The notes below the pieces were generated by a model that was not told the DNA's origin, made no database searches, and was given only the letters and a program-made list of their open reading frames with translations. Below are positions 10,431 through 44,084 of a DNA stretch of 64,000 nt, piece by piece. Origin of the DNA: Lepidurus packardi (lineage: Eukaryota > Arthropoda > Branchiopoda > Notostraca > Triopsidae); the NCBI GenBank assembly GCA_023053545.1, contig JAKZAN010000006.1, positions 3,849,001 to 3,913,000 on the forward strand, in the 5' to 3' direction. Position 1 is the first letter of the stretch; the number at the start of each line of letters is the position of its first letter. A program made the position numbers and the translations under genes.

Positions 10431-12910
10431 ATGTTTAACATTGGTGGAGTGATAGGCGTCGTTATTTTTTATGTGCTCATATTGCTGGTGGGAATATGGG
10501 CGGGCCGGAAGAAAGGTACTGGAGCAGGTTCGGAAACTGAGGAAGAAGTGATGTTGGCCGGACGCAATATTGGCCTTTTTGTTGGTATTTTTACCATGAC
10601 AGGTAAGAATTCAGGGGATTGAGACTCCTGCTGCAGAAAGGTACTAAAATCCATTCGGGTTTCTTTACACAATAAGCCACTTGGGTGGGAGGAGGCTATA
10701 TTTGCGGTACAGCAGAAGAAATTTACGGACGCGGGATTGTGTGGTGCCAAGCACCATTCGGCTATGCACTATCGCTCGTATTTGGTGGCTTCCTGTTTGC
10801 TAATAAGATGCGAGAACAGGGCTACATTACTATGCTTGATCCCTTGCAAGACAATTTCGGTGGGCGAATGGGAGGATTACTCTTTATCCCTGCTCTCTCC
10901 GGTGAAGTGTTTTGGTCGGCTGCCACCTTAGCTGCACTGGGTAAAAATCCTTTTCCTAAAAAAAATCGCCCAGCTCCGCCTTCTGCATGCTAAATTAATC
11001 ATCTCTTCGTGTTAATGGCGACAGGTTCCACCATCAGTGTCATTATCGATATCGACGTCTCCGTGAGCGTGATAGTCTCTGCTTGCATAGCTATTTTCTA
11101 CACCTTGTTCGGTGGCCTTTATTCTGTGGCGTATACGGACGTCATTCAACTCTTTTTCATCTTTATTGGCCTCGTAAGTCTTTCAAGACCAGCCATAGTT
11201 GGAACAGATTTAGTAATGGTAGACATGACATAGTGGATAAGTATTCCTTTTGCTGTAACTCATCCTGCTGTCGGATCCTTATCACCCCAAAATACCGACT
11301 GGATTGGTACCGTGGACCCGGACTATTACGGCCAGTACTTTGATTATGCGATGCTGCTAGTTTTCGGCGGTATTCCATGGCAGGTAAATGTAGCTCATAC
11401 TAATGGACTAGAGACTTGATTACTCGCATTATTGCTCAATTGCGTCAATCCACTTTTCCCTTTTAAAATATTTAAGGCGTACTTTCAACGTGTACTGTCC
11501 AGCAAAACTGCATCAGGAGCCCAAATCTTGTCTTACGTGGCAGCTGTGGGTTGCTTCGTAATGGCTATCCCTTGTGTTATCGTAGGAGCCGTTGCCAAGG
11601 CTACAGGTACTGTATTTATAGAAAACAGAAATTGTCATAGATTTTAATGCCTGTCGCATTATTACTTAATTACTCGCTACACGAAAACTTTTCTTGTGTC
11701 CTAATGCAGCGTGGAATGAAACTGATTACCAAGGAAACTACCCACTAGAACCCGAACAAGCTCGCATGGTATTGCCTTTAGTTTTACAGTACCTAACACC
11801 TGGGTATATCTCGTTCTGCGGTCTTGGGGCAGTCTCAGCTGCTACCATGTCTTCAGCGGACTCCTCAGTGTTCGGAGCTTCTTCAATGTTCGCCCGTAAC
11901 GTGTATAAGCTGATATTTCGACAGCAGGTATGCCACAAAACTCCACGCTAATGATATAATACACTGAGCTAATGGAATTCATGGGGAAAGGCGTCTGAGC
12001 ACGAAATCGTGTGGGTAATGCGGATCTCAATTTTGATATTCGGTACTTTGGCGACGATAATGGCTTTAACCGTTCAAACCATCTATGGTTTGTGGTAAGT
12101 TATTTTTTTTCCTCATCGAATGAAGAATGTCGTGGTACTTTCTCCTCACCTCAACAATGCATAACTTGATTTCCTTGTTTTTCTCTCAATGCCTACTTCC
12201 AAATAGCAACCCATTTCAAACTCTTTAATCGTTTATCAAGGTACTTGTGCTCGGATTTGGTGTACGTTATTTTGTTCCCACAATTGCTCATGGTGGTTCA
12301 CTTCAAGCACCACTGCAATACTTACGGAAGTTTAGCTTCATACATTCTCGGGCTATTTGTCCGCATTTCGGGTGGTGAGCCTCTTCTGCATTTACCTCCC
12401 TTGATCCACTATCCAGGATGGAATGGTACGGAGCAACTGTTCCCGTTCCGTACTTTCGCCATGGTGATATCCTTGATTGCCATTATTGTCTTCTCAATGG
12501 TAACGCGCCATCTTTTCGAGTCCGGCAAGCTAGCACCCAAATACGACTTTTTGCAATGCGTCGTCAATATTCCGGAAGACGTAGTGCGCGTAGGTGAGCC
12601 CCAAGAAGGCGAAATGACTGCCATGAGCAACTTGGAAGTCAAAACTTATTGTTCAATTGATGAAATGAACGGCCGCGTAAATCCTGCACTCACTTTGGGA
12701 AGCGACTCTGAAGAAGATATCGAAGCGGCTACCAATAAAGGTTCCTTGATTCGGTCCAGTAAACGTAAAGGTAGCAACAGTAGTCGAAATAGCGTGCCTC
12801 CGACTGCCTCAGCATTTGTGGATCCCCGACGACAAAGTGTACGCTCGCAGACCAGTACTACTACATCACCAGCTAAAGGGAAACTAGGCGAGATCCAAAC
12901 CACATTCTAA
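10431..12910 (+). CDS. ChT: High-affinity sodium-dependent choline transporter (SLC5A7/CHT1 family)
   Basis: Takes choline back into cholinergic terminals with Na+ and Cl-, the rate-limiting step for acetylcholine synthesis. Eight coding exons join in frame: 10431-10602, 10677-10940, 11025-11173, 11234-11383, 11477-11606, 11710-11927, 11991-12094 and 12241-12910, giving 618 aa against about 580 in vertebrate CHT1. Family blocks are present in order: [10 protein letters not shown] and [15 protein letters not shown] near the N-terminus, [94 protein letters not shown], and [18 protein letters not shown]. The cytosolic tail is longer than usual, Ser-rich and acidic ([15 protein letters not shown]). 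The initiator lies 22 nt inside an exon that starts at 10409, so the 5' leader is spliced. It is on the same strand as VAChT and ChAT. Confidence 0.96.
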
Positions 12911-12929
12911 TTCCTGGTGCATTCCATGA

Positions 12930-12935
12930 AATAAA
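12930..12935 (+). terminator. Candidate polyadenylation signal of ChT
   Basis: AATAAA lies 20 nt after the stop codon. That is close, so a more distal site may be the main one. Confidence 0.4.
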
Positions 12936-13764
12936 CCACCTGCTAGTCCCCGCTATAGTTTTACGTTTTAGCAATAGAAAGACTTTATCGATGTTAACGT
13001 AAAAGCAAGAACATGTCAGTTCATGCTAATAAGGGCCTGCCCAAACCATAGTCTCATTTGCAACGGCAATAACACTGTTATTGGTATTCGGTACTTTTCA
13101 ATAGTTCATTCTCCAAAACCCTCGCAAACATAAACTTGAATGTGATGTTTCCCGGCCTATCCGTGTTTGCCGTACTGCTAACTGGAGAAATTTGACGTTT
13201 CCATGTGGTAATTCTAGTTGAACATTACTAAGTGTAAGAAGAGATTAGACTTGGAAACTAAGAAGCAATTGTTCTTCTGACTCACTCGCCCTCTGGAGAA
13301 GCAACAGCGCACAGCTCCTTATGTACTAACGTATAAACCCGAGCAAATGGGACTAAAATGGACAATTACGGTACACAATGCTACCCATTAGTCCGCAAGA
13401 ATGAAACAACACTCTGAAAGTACCCCATTAAGCCACAGAAGCCAATAATAGCTCGTAACATAGCGTATCTTTTTCTGAATTACTGTCACGTAACATTTGT
13501 TTGATGGTTGTTATACGTTATACAAATACTTTAGATGTTACCGACAAACAAATGAGAGAATATATTTGATGTGCGAAAATAAAACAGATTCTTGGTAACC
13601 ATAAATATTTTTTTTCTAAATAACGTTTACAGTAGAGGAAAATTTGTATTTCAAATATATTGTTCTGTTCGCTTGAGAAGGAGTTACAATGAGTATTAAA
13701 GGATTTGGTTGAAGGCGATCCAAGTTGAGATAGCTCGATTGGTTTCCAGCCTGCAGAATACCCT
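12936..13764. other. Converging 3' flanks of ChT and the Gly-rich gene
   Basis: The region is AT-rich and has no supported reading frame. It should contain the 3' UTRs of the two convergent neighbours. I saw no clear minus-strand AATAAA for the Gly-rich gene. Confidence 0.5.
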
Positions 13765-15206
13765 TTAGCGTCCATAGCCAGAAGAAGAACCGCCTCCAAC
13801 GTACACCGGAGCGGCGTAGGTAGGAACGGGGACTTTAACGGGTGCTGCCCCATAAATAGGGGTAGCATAAGATGCACCACCATAAGTACCGCCACTAACT
13901 GGAACAAACCCTCCATGGCTACCGCCGCCATATCCTCCACCGATACCCCCGTGACCGCTTCCAATGCCTCCATGACCACCGCTTCCATATCCGCCACTAA
14001 TACCTCCATGACCGCCCCCGATAGCTCCACCGTGACCACTGCCGCCATATCCGCCCCCGATACCTCCATGGCCACCGCCGATAGCTCCGCCACCATATCC
14101 GCCGCCAATAGAGCCACCGTGAGCGCTTCCGCCATATCCGCCTCCAATACCTCCGTGACCACCGCCGATAGCTCCGCCACCGTATCCGCCTCCAATACCT
14201 CCATGGCCACCGCCGACAGCTCCACCATAACCGCCTCCGATGCCTCCATGGCCACCTCCAATAGCTCCACCGTGACCACCTCCATATCCGCCTCCAATTG
14301 CTCCACCCTGACCGCCTCCATATCCGCCCCCAATTCCTCCATGGCCCCCGCTGATAGCTCCACCGTGTCCGCCACTGCCATATCCTCCCCCGATAGCTCC
14401 ACCATGGCCTCCACCGCCATATCCGCCCCCGATACCTCCATGGCTACCACCAATAGCTCCTCCATGACCACCGCCATATCCGCCCCCAATACCTCCATGA
14501 CCCCCTCCGATAGCTCCGCCGTGACCGCCGCTTCCATATCCGCCCCCAATACCTCCATGACCCCCTCCGATAGCTCCACCGTGGCCACCGCTTCCATATC
14601 CGCCCCCAATACCTCCATGACCCCCTCCGATAGCTCCACCGTGGCCGCCGCTTCCATATCCGCCTCCAATACCGCCACCATAACCGCCGCCATGGCCACC
14701 TCCAATAGCTCCATGGTTGCCACCACCGCCAAGAGAAGATCCACCGTAACCACCAGATCCTTTGCCACCGTGACCGCCAACAACTCCCACACTTCCGTAT
14801 GCTGGGGCATAACTACTTCCTAGTGCGGCTCCACCATGGGAAGCTCCGCCACCGTAACCCCCGCCGAGTCCTCCGCCATAGCTTCCCCCACCAACTCCAC
14901 CTACTCCGGCGCCGTAGACACTTCCAGTGTCAAAGCTATCCCCTCCGCCTCCATAACTAGCTGTTAATAAAAAAGAAATAAATAAATAGCCGTTATTCAT
15001 TATCTGTTAGCTACAAAAGAAACTTACGAGAACGCTTGGCACTTTTGTCCGCCGAGCTCTGTCCAAGGAAAATGCACAGCACCAGGACTGACGCTACCTG
15101 TGAAATAATCCCAATTAGTCACTGCTAAACGAGCAATATATCTCTATATTCGAGAATATTTTCTGTGACTAAACCTGGAATTGACATTTACCTGGAATTG
15201 CTTCAT
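13765..15206 (-). CDS. Secreted glycine-rich structural protein (GGYGGG/HGGAIGGG repeats, GYGR end)
   Basis: Exons on the minus strand are 15206-15192 (MKQFQ), 15097-15028 and 14960-13765, joining in frame to 426 aa. The second exon supplies the hydrophobic core VASVLVLCIFLGQSSA, followed by DKSAKRS, so this is a secreted protein with its signal peptide split by the first intron (phase 0); the next intron is phase 1. The mature chain is nearly all Gly with Tyr, His, Ser and Ala, in units such as HGGAIGGGHGGIGGGYG. The C-terminus is different: VPVPTYAAPVYVGGGSSSGYGR. Arthropod cuticular and other matrix proteins often have this composition and an intron after a few signal codons; no chitin-binding RR domain is present. 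It lies on the opposite strand between ChT and VAChT. The exact role is unknown. Confidence 0.82.
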
Positions 15207-15343
15207 TGTAGAGAGCTGCGCTAGGAATTCACGCAATTGCACGGAAATATAAATAGGACTTAAATACTTTAATTTGTTCTGTGAATGTTTGCTTGTGGAT
15301 GGCAGAGGCTGTTCTGGCTTGCTATACACTTTCAGTAAGTTGC

Positions 15344-15350
15344 TTTTATA
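15344..15350 (-). promoter_or_regulatory. TATA box of the Gly-rich gene
   Basis: TATAAAA on the minus strand, about 140 bp upstream of the start codon at 15206, predicts a leader of about 110 nt. Confidence 0.55.
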
Positions 15351-18300
15351 CCAACAGAATTCGCCGGTTCCAATATGGAGAAGGTGGGAGAGAAAGTGAA
15401 GCACTAATTTTTCACTAACGTTCTGTGGTCAAATAAGGTCCGGAAGAGGGGGAAGCTTTTGCTTTTCTTATACATAGTAGCGCATATTCAAAGACGGATG
15501 AAACCTGTGTTACACTTGACGTTGTCACGCAGGACGCTTTTAGTTACAAGAAAGGGCTTAAATTCGCTCCAGGAGGCATTGGCGTATGTAATCGTGGTCA
15601 TCAACAGACCAAACCTGCCTAGAGAAAGGTGTTGCTGGGCCTGTTTTTGTGCTGAGCACTTCCCCCACTTTTCAACTGCTTCCAAAATTCCAATTTTTTT
15701 ATGTGTGCAAGTCTCTACTAGATAATTCCGCCAACCTTAAAGAAAAAGGAAGATTAGTTCCCCGGAGCAGCAGGAAAAGCTCTCTTTTCATTCGTCTAGT
15801 GAGGCAAGTTGCAAATATGGGTCAGATTCGTACTTCCTGCAAGGTACGTCTGGGTGCTTAGCTTGTTGTTGAACCGAGCTAAAATTCTTCGCACTTCTAT
15901 CTTGGTTCGCATGAAGATTAGCAGTGTCTCACGATTACATTTAAGACTAGCTACCAAAAATCTTTCAATTCGACTAATATAATGAGGGAGCAAACTAACA
16001 ATGGCGTGATTCAGGTATACCAGGAAGAGAAAACTTACCTTCACGGGACATCATCAACTCACTATTTGGAATGCAAAGCGTTACGAATGTCGCAACTTGG
16101 GTTGTATAGTGAAAGTTGATATGGTAGGTAGTTCGCGCTTGAACACTGTGTTTCACGGCAAGGAAAAAGCGTAAGTAATATCATAAAATAGCTCTCAATG
16201 TTTTTTTAAACAAAAAACGTGTGATGGAAGACTGTAATTTCCTCACGGCCATGGTTCAAAATAGCGCGGCTTGTTCGACGGGTTTGGTTTCAAATTTATC
16301 TTAACTGGTGCTCCGTTATTTCATACGGAATACATCACAAGTTACACACATTGCAAATCTTGTAATAAAATTAGCTAGCGTAAGGACTTCACATGCGACT
16401 CGGTTGTTTTGGAAGTAAGATTTCTGCGTTTCTGCGAAGTGGCTGACTTATTATTTTCGTATGATACCTTGCTGAGAACATGTCAATTTTTATACTTGCT
16501 TCAACCAAAAATAGAGAAGTTGTGAAAATACAATACAATGAACCTTTCCTAGCAAGAACTGTTCCCTGAAAGATATTTTGCTTCGAACTAGGATGAAACG
16601 AAAATGGCAAACCTTCGCAATTCTGAGATACACCTTGAAGTAGACGTTGGACGACGACTACAAGTAGCTATAGTTACTTGCCTTGGTATTTATTTTTTGT
16701 GTGGAAAAAACAAAATGGCAAGACAGCTTATGACTCCATCGCTTTCAGATCGCTTATCGTACACCAGATAGAACGTCCTTGGTTGTTGGGTGAAATCTAT
16801 TTGCTTTCAAAAGTGATCCAGAGTATTCCGGATCAAATAATCTTCATGGATTCCCCGAGAGAAGGGAGCTCGCCAATGGTTTCTGACGTCAAGAGTAGAT
16901 ACTGACCAGCACGCGAACTCGATAGTTGGCGTGACCATAAACCTGCCGCGGAATACGGATCGAGCCAAGATTGTTATTGTGAGACCTGGGAGAATATCAG
17001 GCTATGTTAGCCTTAAAGGCTTCCCCTAAAAACGAAGTTTTTTACCTTCCCCGTGATCCCTGTGTTCTTTCCCTATTTTATGTATACCAACAGGGGCGCA
17101 AGCGTCTTTGTCCCAGTCAATACTTGGCATGGTCCCCCCATCATCAACACAGGTGCACCGCCCTAAGGTCTCTTCAACGTAACAACGTTACAAGTATAGC
17201 ACTGCCTCATCAATACTGCCCACTTCAAACGAATGTATATGCTGTCCAACTAATAACTGTTAACTAGTGCAGCCCACAAACCAGGAAACCACAGAAAAAC
17301 AAAAGGGAAGATTGCCCACGCTTGGACTATATCGCTGGTCATTAAGATTCCGGAAAGAAGATATACAAGCAAAACAAAGCGAAGAATCGCTTGTTTACAA
17401 ATAAGTTTCTTCACTAATTTGTTCACTTTTTTTTTGGTTTCGAATACAGATGGCAATCCGAAAGTCGTTGCTTAGAGAAAGCGTATCGCGATGTTTCCTT
17501 TTTCTGTTTGTCGCATAGACGGAATGAAAGCGTTTAGGATAATGTTTGCATCCGAAAGCTTGTATAGTTCGGATCGATGTGAAAGACCCTTTATTCAAAG
17601 TTTTTAATTGTTAGCCCAAGTTCACGTAAATATTCCGCTTTCACTTCAAAGATTAGCATTAACAAAGGTACTAAACGGGGAATACCTGGAAACTACTTAC
17701 TTACGCATTTACGTGCCCAATGACCTACTTTTGCTTGGAGGGAAATGCCAAAAACCAAACGCAATGAAACCCTTCTTTCCCTGCAAGTAGTTTAGGTGTA
17801 ATGAGCCAAAATACGAGCAAAACACACGGTTTCAACTTTCCACAGGGTTTTCCCAGGGAAGATCTTGGTATAAAAAATACTTGAGACGCTTCACTGTTGT
17901 TGTTGTCGCTAAACTTGAAAAACTCTAAAGGTACAGGACCTTTTACGAAAATCAGATTTACAAAAATACTTAACATGGAAAAGAAAATTTGTTGCTCCTT
18001 ACAACAACTTCATTTATTTTCTTATCTCATTATGCGTAGTAGCAAAGCATGTTAATATACAATACACGCAATCCTTTTCCTTTCCCCGAGTCTCATACGA
18101 GAAAAAAGATTGCAGACTTAATTGCCACTTGTGTACTTCTGTACTCCTGGTATACTTGATTGCTTGGACCCAGGAAAAAAAGAAAGAAAACGGTTATACT
18201 TGTACTAAGGTAAACGCAAAAGGGCTTTGGTTTTATTTGTTGGCGACGACATTAAAATAAGACTTCAAGATGGTAATACCACGCGCACTACATGAGTGAC

Positions 18301-20952
18301 CCAGATCCCGATCTCACGTTACAACACAACACCACGTTTTCCTTGACATAAGACCGAGAAGTACTTAAAAATACACATTTTACGAGCTTCCGCCCGTGTT
18401 CGATACAAATTTCGAAGGTAATCTCTAAAGCAATATGGTTTACTTACTAGGTAATTCGAAAGGACGAGTCAGTTACGAAATTCTCTTCGCTTTATAGTGA
18501 TTACATGACCTAAAGAATGAAAATAACAGGCATAACGCATAAAAGCGTATCGGACAACCTTAGCTTATGTGTTCTCCGGTAAATCCAAGTGAAGGGCAGA
18601 AGGTAACAAAGTGAAGGTTTGGGCACCAATAAAAGAAGTGGCGATGGTCGCTGAGAAAGCCGTGTGATTCCGCTTTTCTTAGGATATAGCAGGTAGAAGA
18701 CACGGATGAGGAACAGCGAGAGTAAGAGCTCCACGGGTTTCACAACGAACCCAGAAACCATAGCACAACGGTCGCATCAAGCCCTCTGTTTCTAGTCACT
18801 ACTTTTTCTGCCTTTCACTGTCACCGAACAAAGGGCCCCTATTTCTGATTCTTACGCCTGTCCTTTTTGTTGAATAGTTAGCCTTCAGAGGAACCATAAA
18901 AATCATAGGTATTAAGGTCACGAAGCCATCTTCAAATTTATATAAAGTGCTAACTTCGCAACGTTACGGCTCCGCTCATAATCCAAGGAAGAGAAAGTGC
19001 GCGAATAGGAGCACAATTCTTAACACACGACAAGGAAGATGACTACGTAGTTCCTTAGTCCTTAAAAACGAAATTGGCTAAGGAGAAAACGGAAAGCGTA
19101 GCTATAGCTTAAATGAAACGAGTCTCACACCTTTATGTTCCGCAAAACTTGTCTAGAGCGTATCTATTACTGCAGATCTTATTGCGCATCTTTTTGCAGA
19201 TCATCCATGCTTTTTTAGAATTTCTATGTACCGAAACAAGTCTACATTTTCTCAATGAGCTCTACTTGTCTCCATTTATTAGAAAAAAGTATTCTGAAAA
19301 CGAGATCTAAGTTGCACTGGACTGCTCCTCTTATTAGAAAAAAGTATTCTGAAAATTAGATCTAAGTTGCACTGGACTGCTCCCAAGTAAAACGAAGTCC
19401 ACCAATGTGCAGCTGCACGAAGCGATATATCCTGAATGTGCAATCTGCATGATAACCTAAATTTGTTGAACGGAAATTACTGTGGGAACCTAAAAAACTA
19501 AATCGATAAAAACAAAGCAAGCAAAACGGATCACACGACTTTGTCCGATCTTTGCCCTAATTGTCCAACTTTCTGTTTCAAAATAACTGACCTGGAAAGT
19601 AATCTATATACCGAAGCCCCAGAAAGATGCACGAGTTGGATTCACGAAGACAACAAAGGTGAGCTAACGTTAGCATAGACAGCTGAAGACCACCACTCAC
19701 TACTTTCACTTTACTTTAGCGTTACGAGCCCAAAAATTCCCAAAGTCCCGAGGACTACGCTCTTACTGCCTTTCTATCTCTTTCAAATCCTCTGTGTACC
19801 AACTAAGGACTCGCGCACTTTATGCGACCTTAGAAAATTAAAAAAAGATCTTCGTTTGCAGGATGAGCCAGCGGTTTTCTCTTTACGCATCTTTTATGCG
19901 ACATACCCAGCAAGAGTTCGTGGTTTGTTTGTTTTCATTACTTTACACTTCTAAAACTCGTAATTTTTTTTAAAAGACATAAATCCCTTCTGCCGAGGCG
20001 TCTTTTCTATTTTACAGGCAAGTAAAAGCTTCTCACGCATGGAAACAAAACTAAACCACGATTTTTCTGCATTGGAGAACCTCCGATCATCATCGGGTAA
20101 TACCCGGGTGCGGTCACTCGGTTGCGGAAGAAATTGTGTCGCTTTCTCTAAGTGAATTAGTGCGATATGTTCAGAAGAAGTCAAAGGGACTTGTCTACTT
20201 GTTTCTATTTCTCTTTTCTCCTGTGAAGCTGCTCGTACAGTGCGTTTACGTAGTGGTAACCTACACTTCGTTTCCTATATATCAAATCATCCGTGTCCCT
20301 GTCTCGGAGAGTGTTCACATACAAAGAAGCCTTTGGGTTAGGCCTTGGCAGCAAATAAAGCATGGGAATGGTCAACCAAGCTAACAGACTCGGTAACGCA
20401 CCCAAGTGTAAGAAAAAATACTTCTGCTTCTTTAACTTCTTCTTTCCCTGCAGGCCTGGCTTCATATCGTAAAAAATACAGATCAACAGGGTATATATGT
20501 CAAGGATTTTTTCTACTTAAAAGTCTTTAAAGAGGAGATGTAAGGTTAATATAATTTTCATTTAAAAAGTAGAAGCTCCGGTCAAGCTGAAGTCATGTAA
20601 CGAAAAGGCAAAGCTTTCCTTTGTCAGGAAAAGCTTACGTCGCTGGAGATTGAGAAAGGGCAAAGTTGTAAATTTCAAAACAGGTAAAAAAAAAAGCAGC
20701 TAACACGTCCTGGCGAGGCTAAAATGTCGGATTGGACGGGGCCGCTCCGAGAGGAAGATGCTCCAATGATGTTCTCTTTAGATGAGGACTGCAGACAAAG
20801 TGAAAGTAAGCCTACTTCAAAACAGAAAGAGAGTCGGAAGGAAACGCCACGTTTTTTCATGGTTTGTAACGTTACTTCGTTACTTTGTATCCGTTGACGG
20901 TACTGGATAGCAAGTTATTACTTCGGACCTAAACAAATCATCTTTAGCTGAA
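15351..20952. other. Long intergenic stretch without a supported gene
   Basis: Open frames here are short (88 codons or fewer), without splice support, and their translations look random. The only structure I saw is a 55-bp tandem duplication at 19276-19383, listed separately. Regulatory DNA of the flanking genes is possible but I could not identify any. Confidence 0.5.
19276..19383. repeat. Tandem duplication, 55-bp period, two copies
   Basis: Two units beginning TTATTAGAAAAAAGTATTCT (19276 and 19331) differ at only a few positions near their middle. They do not overlap any supported gene. Confidence 0.85.
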
Positions 20953-20961
20953 GTTCTAATT

Positions 20962-21343
20962 TTTATTTGAATTAAGCCTCGTAGGCTTACGCCTATTGCT
21001 GGCTTCTATTCTTCTTACAATTGCACAAGATTAAAAACAAAAACAAGAAAGAACATTAAAAAAACAAGAAATAACATTAACATTAATTGACTTGACGTTA
21101 ACTGCAATAAAAAGAGGTGCGCTAAGGCACGTTGGGTGGATAAGGGGGGAGGGAATATGTCTACATCTTGACTGCTTTCTCCATAAATGTGACTAATGCT
21201 GTATAGAATTGTCGGTTCATGAAGAGTTCTTGTATGTTAAAGGGCAAACGAAGGATGCTCAATTCCCTCAACAAGGTTGCTCTCTCCCTGTTCAGATTTC
21301 GGCAGTGAAAAAGAAAGTGCGTAAGGTCTAATTGTATACTGAC
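20962..21343 (-). mobile_element. 5'-truncated non-LTR retrotransposon copy with target-site duplication
   Basis: On the minus strand, 21343 to 21161 encodes about 60 residues ending in a stop. They include THFLFHCRNLNRERATLL, the C-terminal H-x3-C knuckle and following ER/LL residues typical of the ORF2 end of jockey/CR1/R1-like elements. A 3' UTR of about 200 bp follows and ends in AAATAAAAA. The 9-bp sequence GTTCTAATT flanks the copy at 20953-20961 and 21344-21352, which is a target-site duplication. Everything upstream of the tail is missing, so the copy is dead on arrival. The exact clade cannot be told from this fragment. Confidence 0.75.
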
Positions 21344-21352
21344 GTTCTAATT

Positions 21353-22493
21353 GTATAATAAAAGCTCTGAGCGCAAGTTTCAATCATTCAAATGCCTTTC
21401 TAATTAAAAAAATCAATAATAGAGAACATGAGTTGATAATGCATCAATAAAGCCAACGGCTCATTAAAAATACAATATTTGTGTTACTGCGCTTATTTTT
21501 GGATGTTGGAAATAAAAACATTCATTCAGAATATCCCAACAGCTACATCGGCGACCTATAATGGGAGTGAAAGTTTCTGTTTACGCTATGCGCAATTTCA
21601 GTACAGGAGTGAAGAGTAAAGTTATGCAGGGAAGAAGCACGCAAAGCAGCGGTTTGAGTTGCACCCTGGATGTTCGCAAGGTTTGTCGAAACTACTCAGA
21701 CATGCCTACTGATGTTTCTAAATCTGTTTACGACCGGTAAGAAACCTTTCCGGACTAGAAATTCGGGGATCAGCAGAAATGAACATTACTGTCCTTGAAG
21801 ACGTTTCCTTGACCCACTTGGGACCAAGGAAGAGAGGGAGGGGGATGCGAAGAAGATGCCAGCATCAGCCCTGTCTTCGTAGAGTTCACTATTGGGCAAT
21901 AATAACTTTCGAACTCCAACCTGTTTAACTTTGGCAAGTCTACCACCACATCCTTCCAGGTCTTTCAAGTGTAGCCTTTGGATTTCGTAATATCGGTTAT
22001 GCTAAATCTTAATACGTGGTTAGCAAGGCTTTCTTTAGAGGGGCACGCTGACTAAAACTGTTCTAAGAGTTCCACAACTTTTGAATAGGCGAATCTTTCC
22101 TTAGGATTAATTGAGAGCGGACTTCAGCGAATACAATGTTTACTAAATTTGGAGAAGCTACGTAGCTTCTCCTAATTTCTAAGAATTTAATAAGCTGTCA
22201 CTATGAAATACACCAACTAAGCTCTCTGGATGCTGTGCAGTATGTAGAATTTGACTTTCTCATTAGTAAAGAAAACGCAAGTGAAGAACAGTTAGTGACT
22301 TTCTCTGTAAGGGGACTTGTAATGCTAACATATATCTTAAGGGAGAAAGACGCTAGGTAAAAGACCAAGGCATGTGTGCCCTATGTAATATCATATGGTT
22401 GACGAAGACCCGTGTTCATGCCCCAGAGGCGGAGGATCCTCCCATTCCACTCGTACAACTCTCTCTTCGGCTTCATACCTGTATTGTCTCACC
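21353..22493. other. Intergenic, upstream of the Pro/Gly-rich gene
   Basis: No supported gene. The last part is presumably the promoter-proximal region of the gene that follows. Confidence 0.45.
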
Positions 22494-22532
22494 TATATAA
22501 GATCCTCTGCTAGAAGCAAAAGAACATTCAGT
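22494..22532 (+). promoter_or_regulatory. Core promoter: TATA box plus TCAGT initiator
   Basis: TATATAA at 22494-22500 is followed by an arthropod-type initiator TCAGT at 22528-22532, with about 30-36 nt between them as expected. The predicted leader to the ATG at 22633 is about 103 nt. Confidence 0.65.
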
Positions 22533-22632
22533 GAATCGGATTCCACATCGCAGCACAAGTTCCCACAACTTCCTACTCAGTGCGTGGCAGTCTTAGCTTA
22601 CAAAGACAAGACATATTTTTTTTTAAAAAAAT

Positions 22633-25495
22633 ATGGCTTCTCGGCGCTCCGTAAGTGACTTTTCACCCCTAAAGCCGATACAACTTCTTATGGAATGCGT
22701 TACTTAATTATCTAACACTTTGTAGATCTCGTTAGTGCTGTGCGTCTTGCTTGGATCCGTTTTTGCTGCTCCCCGACGTAAGTTCATTTTCGACTATGGT
22801 TTTAAGAATACGGTCTAATTTTTTTTACCGACAAAACTATAATTTTCTAGCGGATGGACATGGTCATGGGCAAGGCGGACATGGTGGAGCTCAAGGTGGC
22901 GGCTACGGTGGCTCGGGAGCAGCAGTTACAAGTACATCATACGGAGGCGGCCAGGGCCAAGTCGCTCAAAGCGTAGGTCAGGCTTCGTCATATGGAAATG
23001 AGCAAGTATCGGTCAGCCAAGGTACTTGGTCTGCCCCAGCACCAGCCCCTGCTGCTGAAGGAGGATATGGTAGCCAGCAACAACAATCATCTTATACAGC
23101 CCCAATTATAAAAGCACAGCCTCAACCTACGTACGGAGTACCCCCTCCTGCAATTCAGCAGTCTTCCGGCTACGGTGCTCCCTCCGCACCGGTCCAACAA
23201 GCTGCTAGTTACAGTGCTCCGGCCCAACAAGCCCAAAGTTATAATGGCCCAGCATCGCAACAACAGTACAGCGCTCCTGCACTAGCTCCAGCGCAGCAGT
23301 CTGCTGGCTATGGTGTTTCCGCTCCAGCACAAGCCCAACAATCTTACACTGGATCTCAATCGTCATCCTGGTCGGTTTCTGCTCCAATTCAGCAAGCGTC
23401 CGGCTATGGCGCTTCTCCTTCTCAGCCTAGCTATTCGGCTCCCGCTCCCGCTCCAGCTCCGCAAACAAGCTATTCGGCTCCAGCCCAGACTCCTCAACCA
23501 AGCTATTCGGCTCCTGCTCCAGCTCCTCAGCCCAGCTATGGTACACCGGCTCCAGCTCCTCAACCTAGCTATGGTGCTCCCGCTCCCGCTCCAGTTCCCC
23601 AGCCTAGCTATAGTGCCCCTACTCCAGCTGCTCAACCTAGCTATGGTTCTCCCGCTCCAGCTCCCCAGCCTAGCTATGGTGCCCCCGCTCCAGCTCCTCA
23701 GCCTAGTTACGGTTCCCCCGCTCCAGCTCCTCAACCTAGCTATGGTGCTCCCGCTCAAGCTCCTCAACAAAGCTATTCGGCTCCTGCTGCAGTTTCTCAG
23801 CCCAGCTATGCACCCGCTCCAGCTCCTCAGGCTAGCTATGGTGGTCCAGCTTCAGCTCCTCAACCAAGCTATTCGGCTCCTGCTCCAGCTCCTCAGCCTA
23901 GCTATGTTGCTCCCGCTCCAGCTGCTCAGCCTACTTATAGCGCTCCCGCTCCAGCTCCTCAGCCCAGTTATGGTTCCCCCGTTCCAGTTCAACAGCCTAG
24001 CTATGGTGCTCCGGCTTCAGCTCCTCAACCAAGCTATTCGGCTCCTGCTCCAGCTTCTCAACCCAGCTATGGTGCTCCCGCTCCAGCTCCTCAGTCTAGC
24101 TATGCTGCTCCCGCTCCAGCTCCTCAGCTTAGCTATGCTGCTCCCGCTCCAACTCCTCAGCTTAGCTATGCTGCTCCCGCTCCAGCTCCTCAGCTTAGCT
24201 ATGCTGCTCCCGCTCCAGCTCCTCAACCTAGCTATGGATCTTCCCAACAATCTAGCTATGGTGGTTCAACTCCAGTCTTAGGCCCCGCACAGCAGTCTGC
24301 TAACTATGGTGGCAATCAGCAATCTTCCGGTTATGGGTCGTCTCAGGCATCTGTGCCAGCAAGTGGGTACTCGTCCGCTCCTGCCGGTGCTTCTTCCAGT
24401 TCTGGTGCCTCTAATTACGGTGGTCAGTCCAGCCAAGCCGGAGGTTACGGTGGTCAATCCAACCAAGCCGGAGGCTACGGTGGTCAATCGAGCCAAGCCG
24501 GAGGTCACGGTGGTCAATCCAGCCAAGCCGGAGGATATGGTGGTCAATCCAGCCAAGCCGGAGGTTATGGTGGCCAGGCCAGCCAAGCCGGAGGTCACGG
24601 GGGTCAATCCAGCCAAGCCGGAGGATATGGTGGTCAATCCAGCCAAGCCGGAGGTTATGGTGGCCAGGCCAGCCAAGCCGGAAGTCACGGTGGTCAATCC
24701 AGCCAAGCCGGAGGATATGGTGGTCAATCTAGCCAAGCCGGAGGCTACGGTGGTCAATCCAGCCAAGCCGGAAGTCATGGTGGTCAATCCAGCCAAGCCG
24801 GAGGCTATGGTGGTCAATCCAGTCAAGCCGGAGGCTACGGTGGTCAATCCAGCCAAGCCGGAGGTTATGGTGGCCAGGCCAGCCAAGCCGGAGGTCACGG
24901 GGGTCAATCCAGCCAAGCCGGGAGCTATGGTGGTCAATCCAGCCAAGCCGGAGGTTATGGCGGCCAGGCTAGCCAAGCCGGAGGTCACGGTGGTCAATCC
25001 AGCCAAGCCGGAGGCTATGGTGGTCAATCCAGCCAAGCCGGAGGTTATGGTGGCCAGGCCAGCCAAACCGGAGGTCACGGTGGCCAATCCAGCCAAGCCG
25101 GAGGCTACGGTGGTCAGTCCAGCCAAGCCGGAGGCTATGGTGGTCAATCCAGCCAAGCCGGAGGTTATGGTGGCCAGGCTAGCCAAGCCGGCGGTCACGG
25201 TGGTCAATCCAACCAAGCCGGAGGCTACGGTGGTCAATCCAGCCAAGCCGGAGGCTACGGTGGCCAATCCAATGGTGGTCACTCTAGCGCAGCGTCTTAT
25301 GGTGGTGGATCTTCTTATTCTAAGCCAGCTCCCAGACCTTCTGGCGGATATTCCTCGGCCCCTGCTCCCAGACCTAGCCAGAGCTATGGTGCCCCTAAGG
25401 CGCAAGCCTCATCATCTTACAGCGTCCCTGTACCAACCTACAGCGCCCCACGCCCTGCACCATCTGCCCCAGTTTCAAGTGGATATGGACGCTAA
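22633..25495 (+). CDS. Large secreted low-complexity protein (PSYGAPAPAPQ and GGYGGQSSQA repeats, GYGR end)
   Basis: Exons 22633-22650 (MASRRS), 22726-22777 and 22851-25495 join in frame to 904 aa. The signal peptide ISLVLCVLLGSVFA is split after six codons by a phase-0 intron; the next intron (phase 1) lies in the codon just before DGHGHGQ. The mature chain starts PRPDGHGHGQGGHGG. A Gln/Ala/Ser region comes next, then about 25 units of the type PSYGAPAPAPQ (23410-24240), then about 28 ten-residue units GGYGGQSSQA (24418-25269), then a Pro/Ser tail ending VPVPTYSAPRPAPSAPVSSGYGR in two overlapping motifs. Tyr-rich repetitive composition suggests an extracellular material, possibly cuticle, glue or silk-like, but there is no domain to prove which. 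The long open frames on other strands are shadows of the repeats. Confidence 0.82.
24418..25269 (+). repeat. 30-bp coding minisatellite with 90-bp higher-order period
   Basis: About 28 tandem 30-bp units encode G-G-[YH]-G-G-Q-[SA]-S-Q-A. Through much of the array they cycle as Y/QSS, Y/QAS, H/QSS, so three units form a 90-bp higher-order repeat with very high nucleotide identity. Confidence 0.85.
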
Positions 25496-28600: not shown

Positions 28601-31600
28601 ATCCATTATTAAAAAGGGAACATAAGCCCTCCTTAATACTTGAACACGTTTCAGTCAACGTCAACCCGAATTGCGAGTGGTTATCCATTTGCCATAAGAT
28701 AGCGTCATGCATTTGCCATGAGACGTACTTTTGTTTTTGCCCCACCGTGTTCGATCGACTGCAGTATAAGCAACTCAGGCAGGTATATATTAATGGCAGT
28801 AATGTACACAGGTAGGATATAAAGCACAAGTGCCACGTACTACCAGGGTCTGGGCATAAAGGTGCATGTCAGAAGGGGAAGCAGAAGGGATTTGTAGGCA
28901 CGCAGTGGTGTGCTATACTTACGCAGGAGGGTCTATATAGGTCTACCACCACCAGGTCAGCCTCAGCAACTCCTGCCTTATACTCTATCGATCGAACGTA
29001 CTCGCTCGTGTAGCTCACAATTTTTTCCCCCAAGAACCAGGCATTCATGCCATTTCCGCTCACCGTCATCAACATCAGCCAAAATCCTAACGCCAATCCC
29101 GAAACTCCTGCTGTGTCCCTTGATAAGCTGTCATATTTACTTTGTAATACCTCTGTCCATAATGACTTTACCTATCAAAAGCACATGACAAGCTCCACCT
29201 TTTAATGACCCACAACAAAATCATTAGTACACTTCCAAGCAAAAAAAAAAATTGATCTTTTCCAAGCGTTGACAGAAACCTTCCAGACTGTGCCTCTACG
29301 CAGCAGACAAAAGGGGCTCGAAAATCGATGACCCAAAAGGTAAAGGTACTTTACCCTGACCGATACTTCACTAGAATACAAGGGCGTCGGTGGATATACC
29401 AGTACTCTAGCCCCAGCTTATAACACGCACAAAAACCCCAAGCTTTTAAAAGTACGCCAATGAAAAGGAATAACCTCTTACTCCCTTTGCATTAGTAAGT
29501 TGAAGCAGTTGAACCCCCGTATCATGACGTACAATATTGCCACGTAGTTGGTATGCTTATTAAGTTAATTCAATTCCCTTTTGAGTACGGTGTCGTTATC
29601 CGCTTCGGTGCTTTAAAAAGGAAAGACACATACGGCAAATAAAGGAGAACTGATGAAAAAAATAGGAAAACAAAACACAACCATCACAGTTCCTTAATAA
29701 GCTAATTAACGTTCACTCCTGACTAAGCAATGTAAGAAACAACTACAACGAGGGATAGATATTCCGTGTTCTCCTTTTTCTACTCCCCTTATTATCCACG
29801 TAACGCATCACTACGGAAGGATTGGTACAGACGTACATACGAAGGAAAGGAGTCCCAGCAGGGGCAGGGTCTCAGCAATGAGCTTTGTGTGTGTACGTTG
29901 TTTATGTTGACAAAATGCGAGGGAAGCCTGTTACACGGCTCGACAGTTCCGCAAGAAATTCCGCGGCTTCCCCTCGTATACACCGCATGTGTGCCCTTTC
30001 TGTGAACACAGTAGCTTCCCCACCGCGAAATATCATCTTTTGATAAAGAGGACTCCGTTAGGATAGTGCAGTTTAGGAGAAGATGAAAACACAAGGGCAA
30101 AGAGCGTCAGGAGGTAGTGTTCCCACGGGATGCCTTCCATCTGATGCAAAAACTGTCTTCCCCCCTTACATCTCTCGAATTTCGAAACGGTTGTAAAAAA
30201 CCCAGTCAAAAAACGCAGCATTGTGGGCACTGCACATCCTCCACGCACCACACCCACTAGGTTCGTTACTGGCAACACAAACGAGTATCGAAAAAAAACA
30301 ACTTTATTCCGGCAATTTAACCAGCTTTTCTCACATTATTTTTTTTTCAAAAACAATTAAAAGAAAAAAAAGTACTGAAAAGAGCAAGCCTTTCTAAAGA
30401 GAGAACGCGGGTTCGCTAGGACTTGGTTTTTCACCAAAAAGATTCGACTTGAAAGCTAACTTAAGAACACGGAACGCTGTCTTCCAAATACGGACTGCAA
30501 CGTGAAAGCTGCTATTACCCTAAATAACTTACTGACTCGCTCGATCATCATTTCCGTCTAAGCATCATAATCATCTGGTATAAATCTTCATTTCTACTTC
30601 CAAAAAGATAGACCTACGAGAAAACGCAAGCAGGAAACGGGAACAGTTCCCAACACGAATGCCAATCCGCGTCTTAGCAAAATAAGTTTTCTGTTCCACC
30701 TATTTCCTTAATTTAAAAACAAATGTTTACTTAAAACATTCAAACTAATGGTCCTCCGCTTGCTCTTTCGCGTGTCTATTTTTCCCCCGTTTTTCCCTTT
30801 GTTACTGGTTGGCATAGCAACGAGAATCCGGTGTGGACCCATAACCTGAGCAACAAAACGATGCTAATGGGTCTTTGTTAGGCGTTCTATATAACCCCTA
30901 ACGTGCTGATGTGTGTGTTTTTGCCCAGGTGTATTATATTAACGTGTACAGCCCCCTTCTTTTGGCTTTCTATTAAAGCCTAAAGTAAATCCCATTTTTC
31001 AATTTAGCTGTTGCATGCGTGGTGTATAATAGGCTAAATTTCATGCGCAAAGGGGTGAAAAGCTGCAAGTATAAGAAATACAAATGTTAAATAGAAAATG
31101 TACCTCATTTTCCCCCTTGGTACGCTCGTCTACGCTTTCCTCGTCCTTTTCCATTACCGTGGTAATAAATTAACCAGCCGGCCAGTAACCAAATGGAAAC
31201 TTGATTGATTTTAGTTCGTGACAAACAAACAAGCTTCCCTTCAAATGGTTGAATTCGTCGTTCACTAAGTTAAGTTTTAGAGTGGTGTACGGAAACGAGT
31301 GTTGTTGTGCACGCTACTAATGTAAAAAAAAAAATTGCCAAAAGTCACAATGTTTGATTTCTTCCCGTATTGTATTTTTCTCTTTACACGTAGGTTTGGA
31401 AGCCCGTGTCGTGCAACCAACACTCGTTTTCTCTCCTGTTGTTGCCGTATGAGGAAGGAAGGACAGAAATCCGTAGAAATTCTCCTCGCCGTTCCCCCAG
31501 CGACCTGACCTGCTGTGACCTGGGCGGTTGAGGGACACAAGTCGCTTTGGCGGTGTACCAAAGACCCTGATCTCCCTTGATCATCGTCTCTCCCTTAATT

Positions 31601-32361: not shown

Positions 32362-32517
32362 AAGACTACCAAAACTTGACTCCCTCTCCTTCAAAGACTC
32401 GAAAAAAAAAACTACGAGCCATCAAGTAGATGAAACCTTTGTGATCTTTATAAACTCTGGCAGTTTCTTGAGAACTCCCTTTGCCTGGAAAACCTTCTCT
32501 CCCACAAAATAATTAAG

Positions 32518-34383
32518 ATGCCACGCATACCGATTCTAAACATGGAATACGCCGAAGCCAAAGAGCTTTTCTTCCAACGCGTCCAGGAACCACACATGCA
32601 ACGAAAGCTAGTTTTAGTAATCGTATCCATCGCACTCTTACTGGATAACATGCTGTACATGGTCATCGTACCAATCATTCCCGATTACTTGCGAAGACTT
32701 GGATCTTGGGACACGCACGTCGAGGGTGGCGAGTACGTCACAGAGCCAAACCGCTGGCACGTCAACTCGACCGGCAACTACACTGTTGTGGAGAACAAGA
32801 CTGCTCACCTAATTAACGGCGTAATAGTGTACGAAAACGAGGATTCCGCCATTGGAGTCCTTTTCGCATCCAAAGCCATCGTCCAGTTGATGGTGAACCC
32901 TTTTTCGGGCGCCTTGATTGACCGCGTCGGGTACGAGCTACCAATGATGATTGGATTGGCTATCATGTTCTTCTCCACTGCAGTCTTCGCATGTGGTCGA
33001 AGCTACGGCATATTGTTCTTTGCCCGGTCTCTTCAGGGCGTGGGTTCCGCGTTCGCCGATACTTCGGGCTTGGCTATGATCGCCGATCGGTTCACCGAAG
33101 AAAGCGAACGAACCAAAGCGTTGGGAATCGCTTTGGCTTTCATTTCCTTTGGCTGCCTTGTTGCCCCACCATTTGGCGGTTTGCTGTACGAATTCGCCGG
33201 AAAAGAATTCCCATTCTTGGTTCTGTCCCTCGTATGTCTGGCGGACGGGTTTATGTTGCGCTTAGTCATGAAACCCTATGGCATGGTCCAGCTTAAAGAA
33301 GCCATGAACAACGCTGGCAATTACCAAGGCCAACAACCTGTAGGTATCCCAATCTGGCGTTTGCTAATGGACCCTTACATCGCTGTCTGTGCCGGGGCAC
33401 TTATGATGTCCAATGTTTCCCTCGCCTTCCTTGAGCCCACTATCTCGGTCTGGATGATGGACAACATGGACGTGAAGCAATGGCAACTAGGCATGATTTG
33501 GCTCCCTGCATTCGTTCCACACGTTGCAGGCGTCATTCTAACGGTCAAAATGGCTCGACAGTACCCTCAGTACCAATGGGCCATGGCCGCAGGCGGTCTG
33601 GCGTTAGAAGGACTCTGTTGTCTCATCGTCCCTTTCGCGCGGTCTTACTGGGTTCTAATGATTCCAATCTGCGGTATCTGTTTCGGTATTGCGTTAATTG
33701 ACACCGCGCTTCTGCCGATGTTAGGTTACCTGGTCGATGTCCGCTATGTCTCTGTCTACGGAAGCATCTACGCTATTGCTGACATCTCTTACTCAATGGC
33801 GTACGCTATTGGACCCATCATCGCCGGTGGTGTGGTAGAATCCATCGGATTTTTGGCCTTGAATATAGGAATCGCCGTTTCAAACCTACTCTATTGCCCC
33901 GTACTCATGTTTCTCCGTCATATTTACGACTACAAGCCCTTTGAAGACGACGAGGCGAACGTTCTCATGTCTGATCCTCCGGAGAAACAGTATCAGACCT
34001 ATACTCTCCAAGACACTACCAGCCCAGTACCAGTATCCCACGAAAAGAAGAACCACTTGGAATACGGCAAGTCCAGCAACGGTAATAATGACAAGTACTC
34101 CACGGAATACACTCCCTTCGAGGAAACCAACGTTGACCAGGGATACGTTCAAGGTAACGGAGAGAACGGCTATGCCAATTTTGCAGACTTTAATAGCCAC
34201 ACCAGTTACGAAATGCAACAACGAGAATCACGGACCGTACCTCCACCGCGGCCTGCCTTGCCCCAACATATCGCCATGAATCCCATATCACAACCCCAAT
34301 CACAACCGCAAACTCACGGTAGTTGGTTCAAGTCCGACGCTGTTTACAATGCGCCAAAGAACGACACCAATCCTTTCCGATAG
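32518..34383 (+). CDS. VAChT: Vesicular acetylcholine transporter (SLC18A3 family)
   Basis: Proton-antiporter that loads acetylcholine into synaptic vesicles; 12-helix major facilitator protein of 621 aa in one uninterrupted exon, as in Drosophila and vertebrates. Visible family blocks: RKLVLVIVSIALLLDNMLYM with VIVPIIPDYLR (helix 1), a glycosylatable lumenal loop with N-x-T sites (about 75-95), SKAIVQLMVNPFSGALIDRVG (helix 2 and loop), QGVGSAFADTSGLAMIADRF, ERTKALGIALAFISFGCLVA, IDTALLPMLGYLVDVR and SVYGSIYAIADISYSMAYAI (helices 10-11). The tail (about 490-621) is hydrophilic and Gln/Pro/Asn-rich, longer than in vertebrates. The 5' leader is spliced: an acceptor lies at 32361. It sits on the same strand and upstream of the ChAT coding exons, the conserved cholinergic-locus order. 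Confidence 0.97.
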   Translation: MPRIPILNMEYAEAKELFFQRVQEPHMQRKLVLVIVSIALLLDNMLYMVIVPIIPDYLRRLGSWDTHVEGGEYVTEPNRWHVNSTGNYTVVENKTAHLINGVIVYENEDSAIGVLFASKAIVQLMVNPFSGALIDRVGYELPMMIGLAIMFFSTAVFACGRSYGILFFARSLQGVGSAFADTSGLAMIADRFTEESERTKALGIALAFISFGCLVAPPFGGLLYEFAGKEFPFLVLSLVCLADGFMLRLVMKPYGMVQLKEAMNNAGNYQGQQPVGIPIWRLLMDPYIAVCAGALMMSNVSLAFLEPTISVWMMDNMDVKQWQLGMIWLPAFVPHVAGVILTVKMARQYPQYQWAMAAGGLALEGLCCLIVPFARSYWVLMIPICGICFGIALIDTALLPMLGYLVDVRYVSVYGSIYAIADISYSMAYAIGPIIAGGVVESIGFLALNIGIAVSNLLYCPVLMFLRHIYDYKPFEDDEANVLMSDPPEKQYQTYTLQDTTSPVPVSHEKKNHLEYGKSSNGNNDKYSTEYTPFEETNVDQGYVQGNGENGYANFADFNSHTSYEMQQRESRTVPPPRPALPQHIAMNPISQPQSQPQTHGSWFKSDAVYNAPKNDTNPFR

Positions 34384-41000: not shown

Positions 41001-44000
41001 AGTTTAGTATAACATGGGGTCAATAATAAATGGGGAAAGAGGGTCGTGTTTTGCACGGATAGGAAAATAAAGCTGTTAAAATGTTCAAGAACACTGCACC
41101 ATTTATTCCTACTGTGTAAATGTAACGCGTTCATATTATATTTAAAATCAATACTATTTCACTGTTCAAATTAAAAAGCCCTAACAACTGTTACACATTG
41201 AAAAACCACAATATACATAAACTTAAACATAAATTATTCAATTATTATCCATTACAATAGTTATTCATATGAATAACCCCAAGCCTTTCCAAATCCGCCG
41301 TCCGTTTTGCGTTATTTGAATCCGAAAGATTTGTATCTTGATTAGAAAGGCTGACGACTGTAGCGCAATTTAAATAACGAATATTCATTCGATAAAATCT
41401 AATCTACGAACATACATACATATTTGTTTTCTTTTTATCTGAAATCTAGAGATTACGATGCTTACCCAAACTGCCCGTACCGTCAATGACTCAGACCCTG
41501 GAATACTACTTGGAAGCCGTGAAAATTGCGGCTCCTGATCGTTACGATCAAATAAAGCAATGGGTCAGGGAAGACTGGTTGGAGCCGACAAATGGAATAG
41601 GTGTTCAGCTCCAAGATTTTCTTTTAAAACGTCGGGAAGACCAAGACCACTGGGTACACGTGACTAGCATTTTAAATTTAAATATCTTGAGCTAACAGGA
41701 TAGCCATTATTTCACATTCAAGGCTTATGATTGGTGGACAGATGACATGTATTTCAAAAATCCAATTCCATTGCCCGTTAATTCCAATCCCGGCATGATA
41801 TTTCCGTATTCAACGAAAGGGCTTAATGGCTTCACCTACTCGGTAGCACGTTTCGTAGAAAGCGTTTTGGACTACAAAAGCTTGATCGATAAGTAAGATT
41901 CAACTTGGAAATGTGCTATATGGGTGTAATCAATAAAAAAAAACACAATCTATTATAGAGAACTTCTACCTCAGGACGTCGCAGCGTCAAGGGAAAAGGG
42001 GCAGCCTTTGTGTATGCAGCAATACCAGAGGTTGTTCACCGTCTGCCGCATCCCGGGCACGGACAAAGATTATCAACAATTCAGTCCCTCCAGCCCCGAC
42101 GAGCACATCATCGTGGCACATAAAAACCAGGTCCTTCAAAACTTACCTTTGTGACGTATTCCAGTTGTTTATGCATGACGCTCATCTGAGTTGATGTGGA
42201 CGAGACTTTCTGCGTATTTCAAGCATCCTAACGGAAAAGCTTCGGAATTTTGCCTTGCAAATCTTAAGGCATCCTTTCTTTAACCATACAATTTTCGTAG
42301 TTCTGGAAAGTGGAGGTAAGAAAAGCTGGTAAAAGACTAACATTAGACAAGATATGGAGCCAATTGGTGTATATCTACCGTGATGGAGTATCGGGCGAAA
42401 AGGAAAGTCTTGCAACTTTGCCACCAGTGGGGATATTAACAACGGAGGTGCGGACCACTTGGGGTGAGATCCGCCAGCATCTTCTGAAAGGTACAGTTTC
42501 TTCAGCGTTCCCAGTCTTACCTTCCCATCACTTTCTTGTAATCCAACCATAAATACTTTCAATGACTATGGAATCAGCAGATCCTATCAATTTGCAATCG
42601 TTGCAACATTTGGAAAGTTGTCTAATGTTGGTCTGCCTCGACGAACCATTGTCGTTACATTTTAGTGCCGACAAAACTTTGAAGGAACGTGATGATACTA
42701 GTAAACTTCTACAAATGATCCATGGGGGTGGTAGTCACTATAATTCATGCAATCGCTGGTTTGATAAAACTATACAAGTAATCAAGTTTTATAAATATAT
42801 TAAAGAATGGAACTTACTTTTAAACATGGGTCACACGGTGCAGTTCATCTTCAGTCCTGATAATGTCTCGGGATTTTGTTATGAACATTCGGCTGCCGAA
42901 GGTATCGTAGTGGTGCAAATGGTAGAAACCGTCTTGCAAAATTTGAAGGCTACACCCCTGGATGAAATACTCAATACCCATTCCGTCGAATTGCCCAAGC
43001 TTGACAACATTCCTTTGCTTCTTCAGTGGAATCTGCAGGACGACATTAAAGCATTCATTCGTTCCGCCATCCATAACATGGATAGGTAAAAAGGAAGAAT
43101 TTTTTTTTAAAAACAATGATAGAACTTAGAGTCCAAGTTCTGTAAATCTGGAGGAGAAAAGAAACTGACATACTTCCTATCTAGATTGGTAGAAAGCTTG
43201 GATTACCGGGTGTACCACTTCACGGATTATGGCAAAAACTTCATTAAGACTTGCAATATTAGTCCTGATGTTTACATCCAACTTGCTCTTCAACTCACCT
43301 ACTACAAGTATATCAATTAATTTCAAATGTATGTACTATATTTCCGATTTATAACTTATCGAGCATTACAGACTACATAACCAGATGTGTTCCACCTACG
43401 AGAGCGCTTCGACTCGGAGATACCGCTATGGCCGGGTTGATTGCATTCGTTCATCAACCTTACCTGTCCTAGTTTGGGTTCAGGCAATGGCAAACAAAGA
43501 AGAGGTCTAAAAAGCTTCATAGGCCCGGAAGAAAGAACGGAACCTAATATATCTTGTCCGACTTTCGCTTTCCCTGTAGGAGCAGAACTGCCGCACGCTT
43601 TTCACGTCAGCCGCCGAGTACCAAACGCAACTTATGGTAGCAAATATTCTGGGTCAAGGCATGGACATTCACTTATTGGGTTTGCGCGAAGCAGCGAAAC
43701 TTCTAGAAAACAAGAAGGCCTTGCAGCTATTCGCGGATCCTAGTTACGAAGCCATCAACCATTTTTCACTTTCTACTTCCCAGGTAAATTATAGGCATAC
43801 CTCTCAGCACTAAAAAAATCAAAACGTAAAAATTCCCAAAATGTCTCATCCGAGTTCTTCTATTGCTGAACGAATTACAGATCCCTACCCAAACAGCTTC
43901 TTATATGGGTTACGGGCCTGTAGTTCCTGATGGCTATGGAGCTAGTTACAACCCTAAAGAGGCCGAAATCGTGTTCGGCATTTCGTCGTTCCACTCTTGC

Positions 44001-44084
44001 GAAGCAACCAACACAAGTCGTTTTGTTGAAGCTTTAAAGGAAAGTTTACTCACTATACGAAACCTGCTGAAAACGAGTCCATAA
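38080..44084 (+). CDS. ChAT: Choline O-acetyltransferase
   Basis: Transfers acetyl from acetyl-CoA to choline in cholinergic neurons. Coding exons 38080-38133, 41450-41653, 41723-41892, 41959-42130, 42301-42490, 42578-42777, 42844-43085, 43185-43307, 43372-43504, 43580-43783 and 43881-44084 join in frame to 631 aa. Family blocks: LPKLPVPSMTQTLEYYL, AYDWWTDDMYFKNPIPLPVN with SNPGM, PLCMQQYQRLFTVCRIPG, VCLDEP, MIHGGGSHYNSCNRWFDKT (HGGG carries the expected catalytic His), GFCYEHSAAEG, TYESASTRRYRYGRVDCIR and SYMGYGPVVPDGYGASYNP. The first exon (MNSVAATNISTSTDSNYH) is less certain: it rests on the donor at 38134, matching phase 0, and an acceptor ending at 37983 or 37993. Further upstream or alternative exons are possible. 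Confidence 0.96.
38134..41449. other. Large first coding intron of ChAT
   Basis: This 3.3-kb intron is far longer than the 63-135 bp introns separating most of the later exons. I saw no nested gene or repeat of note. Long first introns of neuronal genes often carry enhancers, but I cannot point to one. Confidence 0.55.

Follow-up and report, generated by a model that had tools for sequence, protein, structure and literature searches.

A stretch of 64,000 nucleotides from the genome of the notostracan Lepidurus packardi (the window; positions C5:3849001-3913000 in an assembly of 108.6 Mb in 344 contigs) was analyzed, and found to carry on its plus strand the genes for ChT (high-affinity choline transporter), VAChT (vesicular acetylcholine transporter) and ChAT (choline acetyltransferase). 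A second choline transporter gene, ChT2, lies beyond the left edge of the window, and the transporter gene inside the window is hereafter referred to as ChT1. The four genes are listed below in window coordinates, except for ChT2, of which the position on contig C5 is given.

10431-12910, plus strand: ChT1, high-affinity choline transporter of the SLC5A7 type (gene model and CHT1 match); exons 10431-10602, 10677-10940, 11025-11173, 11234-11383, 11477-11606, 11710-11927, 11991-12094 and 12241-12910.
32518-34383, plus strand: VAChT of the SLC18A3 type, an uninterrupted single-exon open reading frame (ORF) of 621 amino acids (ORF and match to solved VAChT).
41450-44084, plus strand: ChAT, 10 coding exons found (gene model and ChAT match); exons 41450-41653, 41723-41892, 41959-42130, 42301-42490, 42578-42777, 42844-43085, 43185-43307, 43372-43504, 43580-43783 and 43881-44084.
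C5:3835809-3838146 (L026), minus strand, about 11 kb left of the window: ChT2, second choline transporter gene (gene model and CHT1 match).

The ChT1 model is complete (8 exons, 618 amino acids, stop-free, GT-AG at all 7 introns), and its best match among solved structures is human CHT1/SLC5A7 with 649 bits, whereas no SLC5 member outside the CHT type scores above 45 bits; assignment of the gene as a glucose or monocarboxylate transporter was rejected on these values. After search of the assembly with the ChT protein, exon matches were found at C5:3835959-3838140 on the minus strand, which represent the sole other strong match and yielded the ChT2 model of 11 exons and 588 amino acids, also stop-free, with GT-AG at 9 of its 10 introns and GC-AG at the remaining one. 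ChT2 matches CHT1 with 572 bits, against 38 bits for the best non-CHT member of SLC5. Across the transporter core, both proteins are closest to CHT1 among the SLC5 members of solved structure, and the Trp and Tyr positions that we take to bind choline are conserved in both alignments. The identity between ChT1 and ChT2 is 57.9%, while that to human CHT1, over about 500 residues, is 61.2% for ChT1 and 57.4% for ChT2. Each of the 7 introns of ChT1 has a counterpart in ChT2 that agrees in place and phase, and ChT2 carries 3 extra introns. Based on this level of identity and the shared introns, the two genes, which are divergent in orientation and 21.3 kb apart from start to start, look like old duplicates at the DNA level, both retained and long kept open. 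The finding of ChT2 suggests that two genes may divide choline uptake in this animal, which bears on the work on cholinergic toxicants in crustaceans.

VAChT gave its best match to the solved VAChT (536 bits, against 342 bits for VMAT), and no full-length match other than its own locus was found in the 108.6 Mb assembly. Partial matches of 32-51% were given by a gene on contig C3 that is called herein VMAT-like, a label that stands for partial similarity to VAChT only. No confirmed VAChT relative was found in viral_contigs (1 stretch fitting the VAChT pattern) or in genome_contigs (15 stretches), as expected for collections of viruses and prokaryotes. For ChAT, all 9 introns are bounded by GT-AG, even though two donors, GTCCTT and GTCTAA, look weak, and no internal stop was found. 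The match to ChAT (443 bits) exceeds that to carnitine acetyltransferase (418 bits) by a small margin, on which identification as a carnitine transferase was rejected. The EHS motif of ChAT, of which the histidine is presumably the catalytic residue, is retained, and the position aligned with Asn of the human ChAT sequence AIDNHLL is occupied by Ile, not by Arg as is presumably the case in carnitine transferases. Since an in-frame stop stands immediately before 41450, ChAT must have a further exon upstream, but this N-terminal (5') coding exon was not located when looked for. The distance from the VAChT stop to the first ChAT exon found is 7.1 kb, and the bona fide uninterrupted VAChT ORF is followed on the same strand by a bona fide ChAT, as in the cholinergic gene locus of animals. 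In textbooks, this pair serves as an example of animal genes of one pathway that have stayed together.

The whole set from ChT2 through ChAT occupies 57.3 kb. ChT1, VAChT and ChAT share the plus strand in one gap-free stretch, in which the end of ChT1 is separated from VAChT by 19.6 kb; the earlier note on this DNA, which had recognized the three genes on one strand and placed ChT about 20 kb upstream of the VAChT/ChAT pair in the same orientation, agrees well with the gene models, the best matches (649, 536 and 443 bits) and the measured distance. The same note regarded the three genes as a possible extended cholinergic supercluster. The linkage is real and is enlarged by ChT2, but the neighbourhood is not purely cholinergic and ChT1 is not adjacent to VAChT, because the interval between them holds the following two features.

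13765-15006, minus strand: Gly-rich repeat ORF (GGYGGG), cuticle- or silk-like and non-cholinergic (ORF and tandem repeats).
22633-25495, plus strand: Muc91C-like, resilin-like gene for 904 amino acids (gene model and repeat counts); exons 22633-22650, 22726-22777 and 22851-25495.

The Gly-rich ORF belongs to no Pfam family and has DNA matches of 68-70% on contig C3. The protein from 22633-25495 has a signal-like start, as judged by eye, followed by 23 A-like repeats of the YGAP type and then by 28 Gly-rich B-like repeats after pattern count, and its gene contains 33-base and 30-base tandem arrays. In the Pfam search it reached 28.2 bits for Mucin-like PF16058, below the cut-off of 28.7, and weakly 15.9 bits for Cuticle_3, and no chitin-binding domain was detected; no second strong match to the gene was found in the assembly. 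As described in PMC10063229, insect Muc91C carries A repeats of PSSSYGAPA, then B repeats of GGYSSGGN, is devoid of the RR2 chitin-binding domain, and belongs to resilin-like proteins that are termed insect-originated. The protein of L. packardi resembles it in the signal-like start, the order of YGAP-type A repeats before Gly-rich B repeats and the absence of RR2, and differs in the detail of the repeat units, which are PSYGAPAPAPQ and GGYGGQSSQA. By its predicted architecture, we call the gene Muc91C-like. Transcription of the whole cluster as an operon-like single unit was rejected, since one of the two features in between is an ORF on the minus strand, and the other a gene whose product has a signal-like start of its own.

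Structural-protein genes flank VAChT/ChAT on both sides: a tandem pair of His/Gln/Pro-rich repeat ORFs (45734-46426 and 48175-48867, plus strand), with the same DGHGHG start as in the Muc91C-like gene, follows ChAT. Farther to the right, and all on the plus strand, are a 1494-amino-acid frame (50801-55285) with a BTB domain and about 10 C2H2 zinc fingers, a bHLH gene (58713), a mitochondrial dehydrogenase kinase of the PDK/BCKDK type (61018) and exons of the aquaporin family (63442). At the left end, a 698-amino-acid Pro-rich frame (1523-3619, plus strand) contains 5 copies of a motif like WEGVDPCTHAFHRWLC and matches no Pfam family at E 0.01. The flanking loci L022, L025, L027 and L029 represent Nicastrin, Lipin, a protein with a sub-threshold rhodanese match that adjoins ChT2, and an exon of a DEAD-type helicase, which by eye resembles Dicer. 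Neither Rfam (gathering thresholds) nor ARAGORN gave any match in the window.

Taken together, the locus is probably, though by no means certainly, an ordinary cholinergic gene locus accompanied by two linked choline transporter genes, with ChT1 on its own promoter and the whole held together as conserved microsynteny. The intronless VAChT ORF stands upstream of ChAT, ChT1 lies 19.6 kb farther upstream on the same strand, and ChT2 would be the old, intact and divergent duplicate beyond it. By the knowledge of these families, choline should be taken up by ChT1, acetylated by ChAT and loaded into vesicles by VAChT. From the case of other animals, VAChT and ChAT probably share a 5' region and are produced by alternative splicing, while ChT1 and ChT2 probably have promoters of their own. 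Co-expression of the transporters with VAChT/ChAT is probably brought about by the same cell-type transcription factors and not by the neighbourhood, as for cho-1 and unc-17 of Caenorhabditis elegans. The linkage itself is most likely a retained ancestral microsynteny that includes the Muc91C-like cuticle gene and is possibly shared with the 91C region of Drosophila.

Several points weigh against this interpretation: repeats by themselves cannot show orthology of a repetitive protein such as Muc91C; the age of the linkage is argued from map positions and cytological names; and the lack of clustering among other transmitter genes, described below, can be read as favouring selection for the linkage found here.

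An alternative is a functional supercluster, in which enhancers or one chromatin domain would be common to ChT1, VAChT, ChAT and perhaps ChT2, with selection maintaining their linkage. We consider this unlikely. In its favour, four genes of one pathway lie within 57 kb, and between other transmitter families no two genes come closer than 332 kb. The latter value comes from a control on contigs C1-C6, in which loci were merged by hand so that the counts are lower bounds: among 9 decarboxylase, 4 biopterin-hydroxylase, 16 SNF-transporter and 1 VMAT-like loci, the nearest cross-family pair is separated by 332 kb. The control omits the hits on C93, C280 and C261, which look bacterial and have long open frames, as well as two weak hits, one of VAChT on C197 and one of decarboxylase at C5:4696482; the last is more than 1 Mb from the nearest listed locus of another family, leaving the 332-kb minimum unaffected. 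The long transporter and enzyme frames of C53, C204, C93, C280 and C261 suggest that these are contigs of bacterial contaminants.

Shared control was examined at two levels. The COE/UNC-3 site TCCCNNGGGA is not enriched in the window with up to 1 mismatch (12 found against 15.9 expected), while exact sites number 2 against 0.53 expected, a count reached by 9 of 100 shuffles. One exact site favours the supercluster by its position, though it may be due to chance:

30121-30130: exact COE/UNC-3-type site TCCCACGGGA, 2.4 kb upstream of VAChT (site count).

No exact site is present within 2.5 kb upstream of ChT1 or ChT2, which speaks against the supercluster. The pattern of a doubled COE site gave no match in the whole assembly, a result that is uninformative. 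For comparison of shared 9-mers, 2.5-kb sequences upstream of ChT1, ChT2 and VAChT were used together with those of three neighbour genes, giving 15 pairs, each with 60 shuffles. None of the three cholinergic pairs shared more 9-mers than the shuffles (the observed number was reached by 49/60, 30/60 and 47/60), and the sole outstanding pair was non-cholinergic, VAChT with the zinc-finger gene at 50801-55285 (2/60). Given the absence of excess shared 9-mers and of COE enrichment, and with cuticle-type genes, presumably of different expression, standing in between, the proposal in the earlier note of shared enhancers or a shared chromatin domain is left unsupported.

The same gene set of C. elegans, cho-1 and unc-17/cha-1, is located at separate loci. 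In difference from the linked genes of L. packardi, co-regulation acts there in trans: UNC-3 acts on cho-1 via a COE site, expression in motor neurons is driven by a piece of unc-17 that carries a COE site, and cho-1 neurons are also unc-17-positive while 11 of the 52 unc-17 classes are without cho-1 (PMC4769160). In the UNC-3-dependent neurons, cho-1 relies on its own COE site (PMC4769160). Joint expression need not stem from linkage, a further argument against the supercluster.

A broader version, equally doubtful to us, is that of an ancient arthropod supercluster, in which ChT2, ChT1, the Muc91C-like gene, VAChT and ChAT were already neighbours before crustaceans and insects separated and have been held so by shared long-range regulation, with ChT2 lost in flies. 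We know of no ChT2 in the fly.

The next alternative supposes that a rearrangement in the crustacean lineage placed ChT by VAChT/ChAT by chance, so that the linkage is meaningless beyond this group. The linkage is not known from nematodes or mammals, and mammalian ChT occupies a locus separate from VAChT/ChAT, as the earlier note had stated. The probability that one named gene falls within 19.6 kb of a fixed locus is small, about 4 in 10,000, but this value is uncorrected for the many pairs that could have been noticed. The same note had also placed ChT at a separate locus in Drosophila, and triangulation makes this doubtful. CG numbers of the fly tend to follow the map order, CG7708 is presumably the fly ChT, and we take fly ChAT to be located at 91B8-91C1. 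In published sources, CG7708 belongs to the SLC5 genes and bears, among other labels, that of a choline transporter, Muc91C is CG7709 (PMC10063229), fly Muc genes are named by cytological position, which gives 91C for Muc91C, and deficiencies named Cha span 90F1-91F5 and 91A2-92A1. From the adjacent CG numbers, the 91C name, the Cha deficiencies and the assumed ChAT site, it is likely that ChT, Muc91C and ChAT of the fly form one neighbourhood. The first three of these items, together with the Muc91C-like gene in the same interval here, point to an old neighbourhood, and chance linkage within one lineage is accordingly judged to be improbable.

The weakest alternative, an assembly misjoin between 12.9 and 32.5 kb, is highly improbable: the interval does hold tandem repeats (13.9-14.7 and 23.4-25.3 kb), by which lengths could be altered, and near 21 kb a dispersed repeat some 360 bases long, but the window contains no N, contig C5 extends over 12.5 Mb (12,481,803 bases), the sequence 25496-32500 matches nothing but itself in the assembly, the dispersed repeat, besides being short, does not exceed 88% likeness to its copies, and a false join must have brought both transporter genes, for ChT2 is on the far side. 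Search of the assembly with 12911-22600 gave low-identity coding matches and the one dispersed repeat, and nothing in the DNA of the interval points to a false join. Partial copies of this repeat (20960-21319), 69-88% alike, are present on C2, C3, C4, C5, C6 and C16, one of them about 4 kb from the end of C5 and another 60 kb from the start of C6. Elsewhere in the assembly, paired globin domains 546-611 bases apart (4 pairs in C3:8583227-8698346 and 1 pair in C1:8303282-8304135) look like two-domain globin genes, and such globins are a hallmark of Daphnia and its relatives. Along with the short introns and the size of the genome, they would fit a branchiopod crustacean.

With these alternatives weighed, we return to the cholinergic gene locus with two linked ChT genes in conserved microsynteny. 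The linkage of ChT, VAChT and ChAT is probably old and may predate the insect-crustacean split, and it is possibly already visible in the fly map. Among the matches listed in the literature search, no title or abstract opening describes ChT linked to VAChT/ChAT; the arrangement may be there to see in fly databases, yet undiscussed. If it is true that ChT is an old third (and, with ChT2, fourth) member of the locus in arthropods, flies and water fleas could serve to ask directly if joint control is the function of the linkage or if it is only a relic.

Among known systems, the Ixodes ticks have a cholinergic gene locus in which VAChT is nested in the first intron of ChAT (PMC7524744). The locus of L. 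packardi is alike in that the VAChT ORF has one exon and precedes ChAT on the same strand, and differs in the linkage of ChT1 and ChT2; the words 'choline transport' do not occur in the text of the tick paper (PMC7524744). In comparison with the known SLC5A7/CHT1, two copies, both predicted to take up choline, are present in one neighbourhood of L. packardi. The 91B-C region of Drosophila probably has the same three gene kinds, ChT (CG7708), Muc91C (CG7709) and ChAT/VAChT, near each other, as suggested by the CG numbers, the cytology and the assumed ChAT position.

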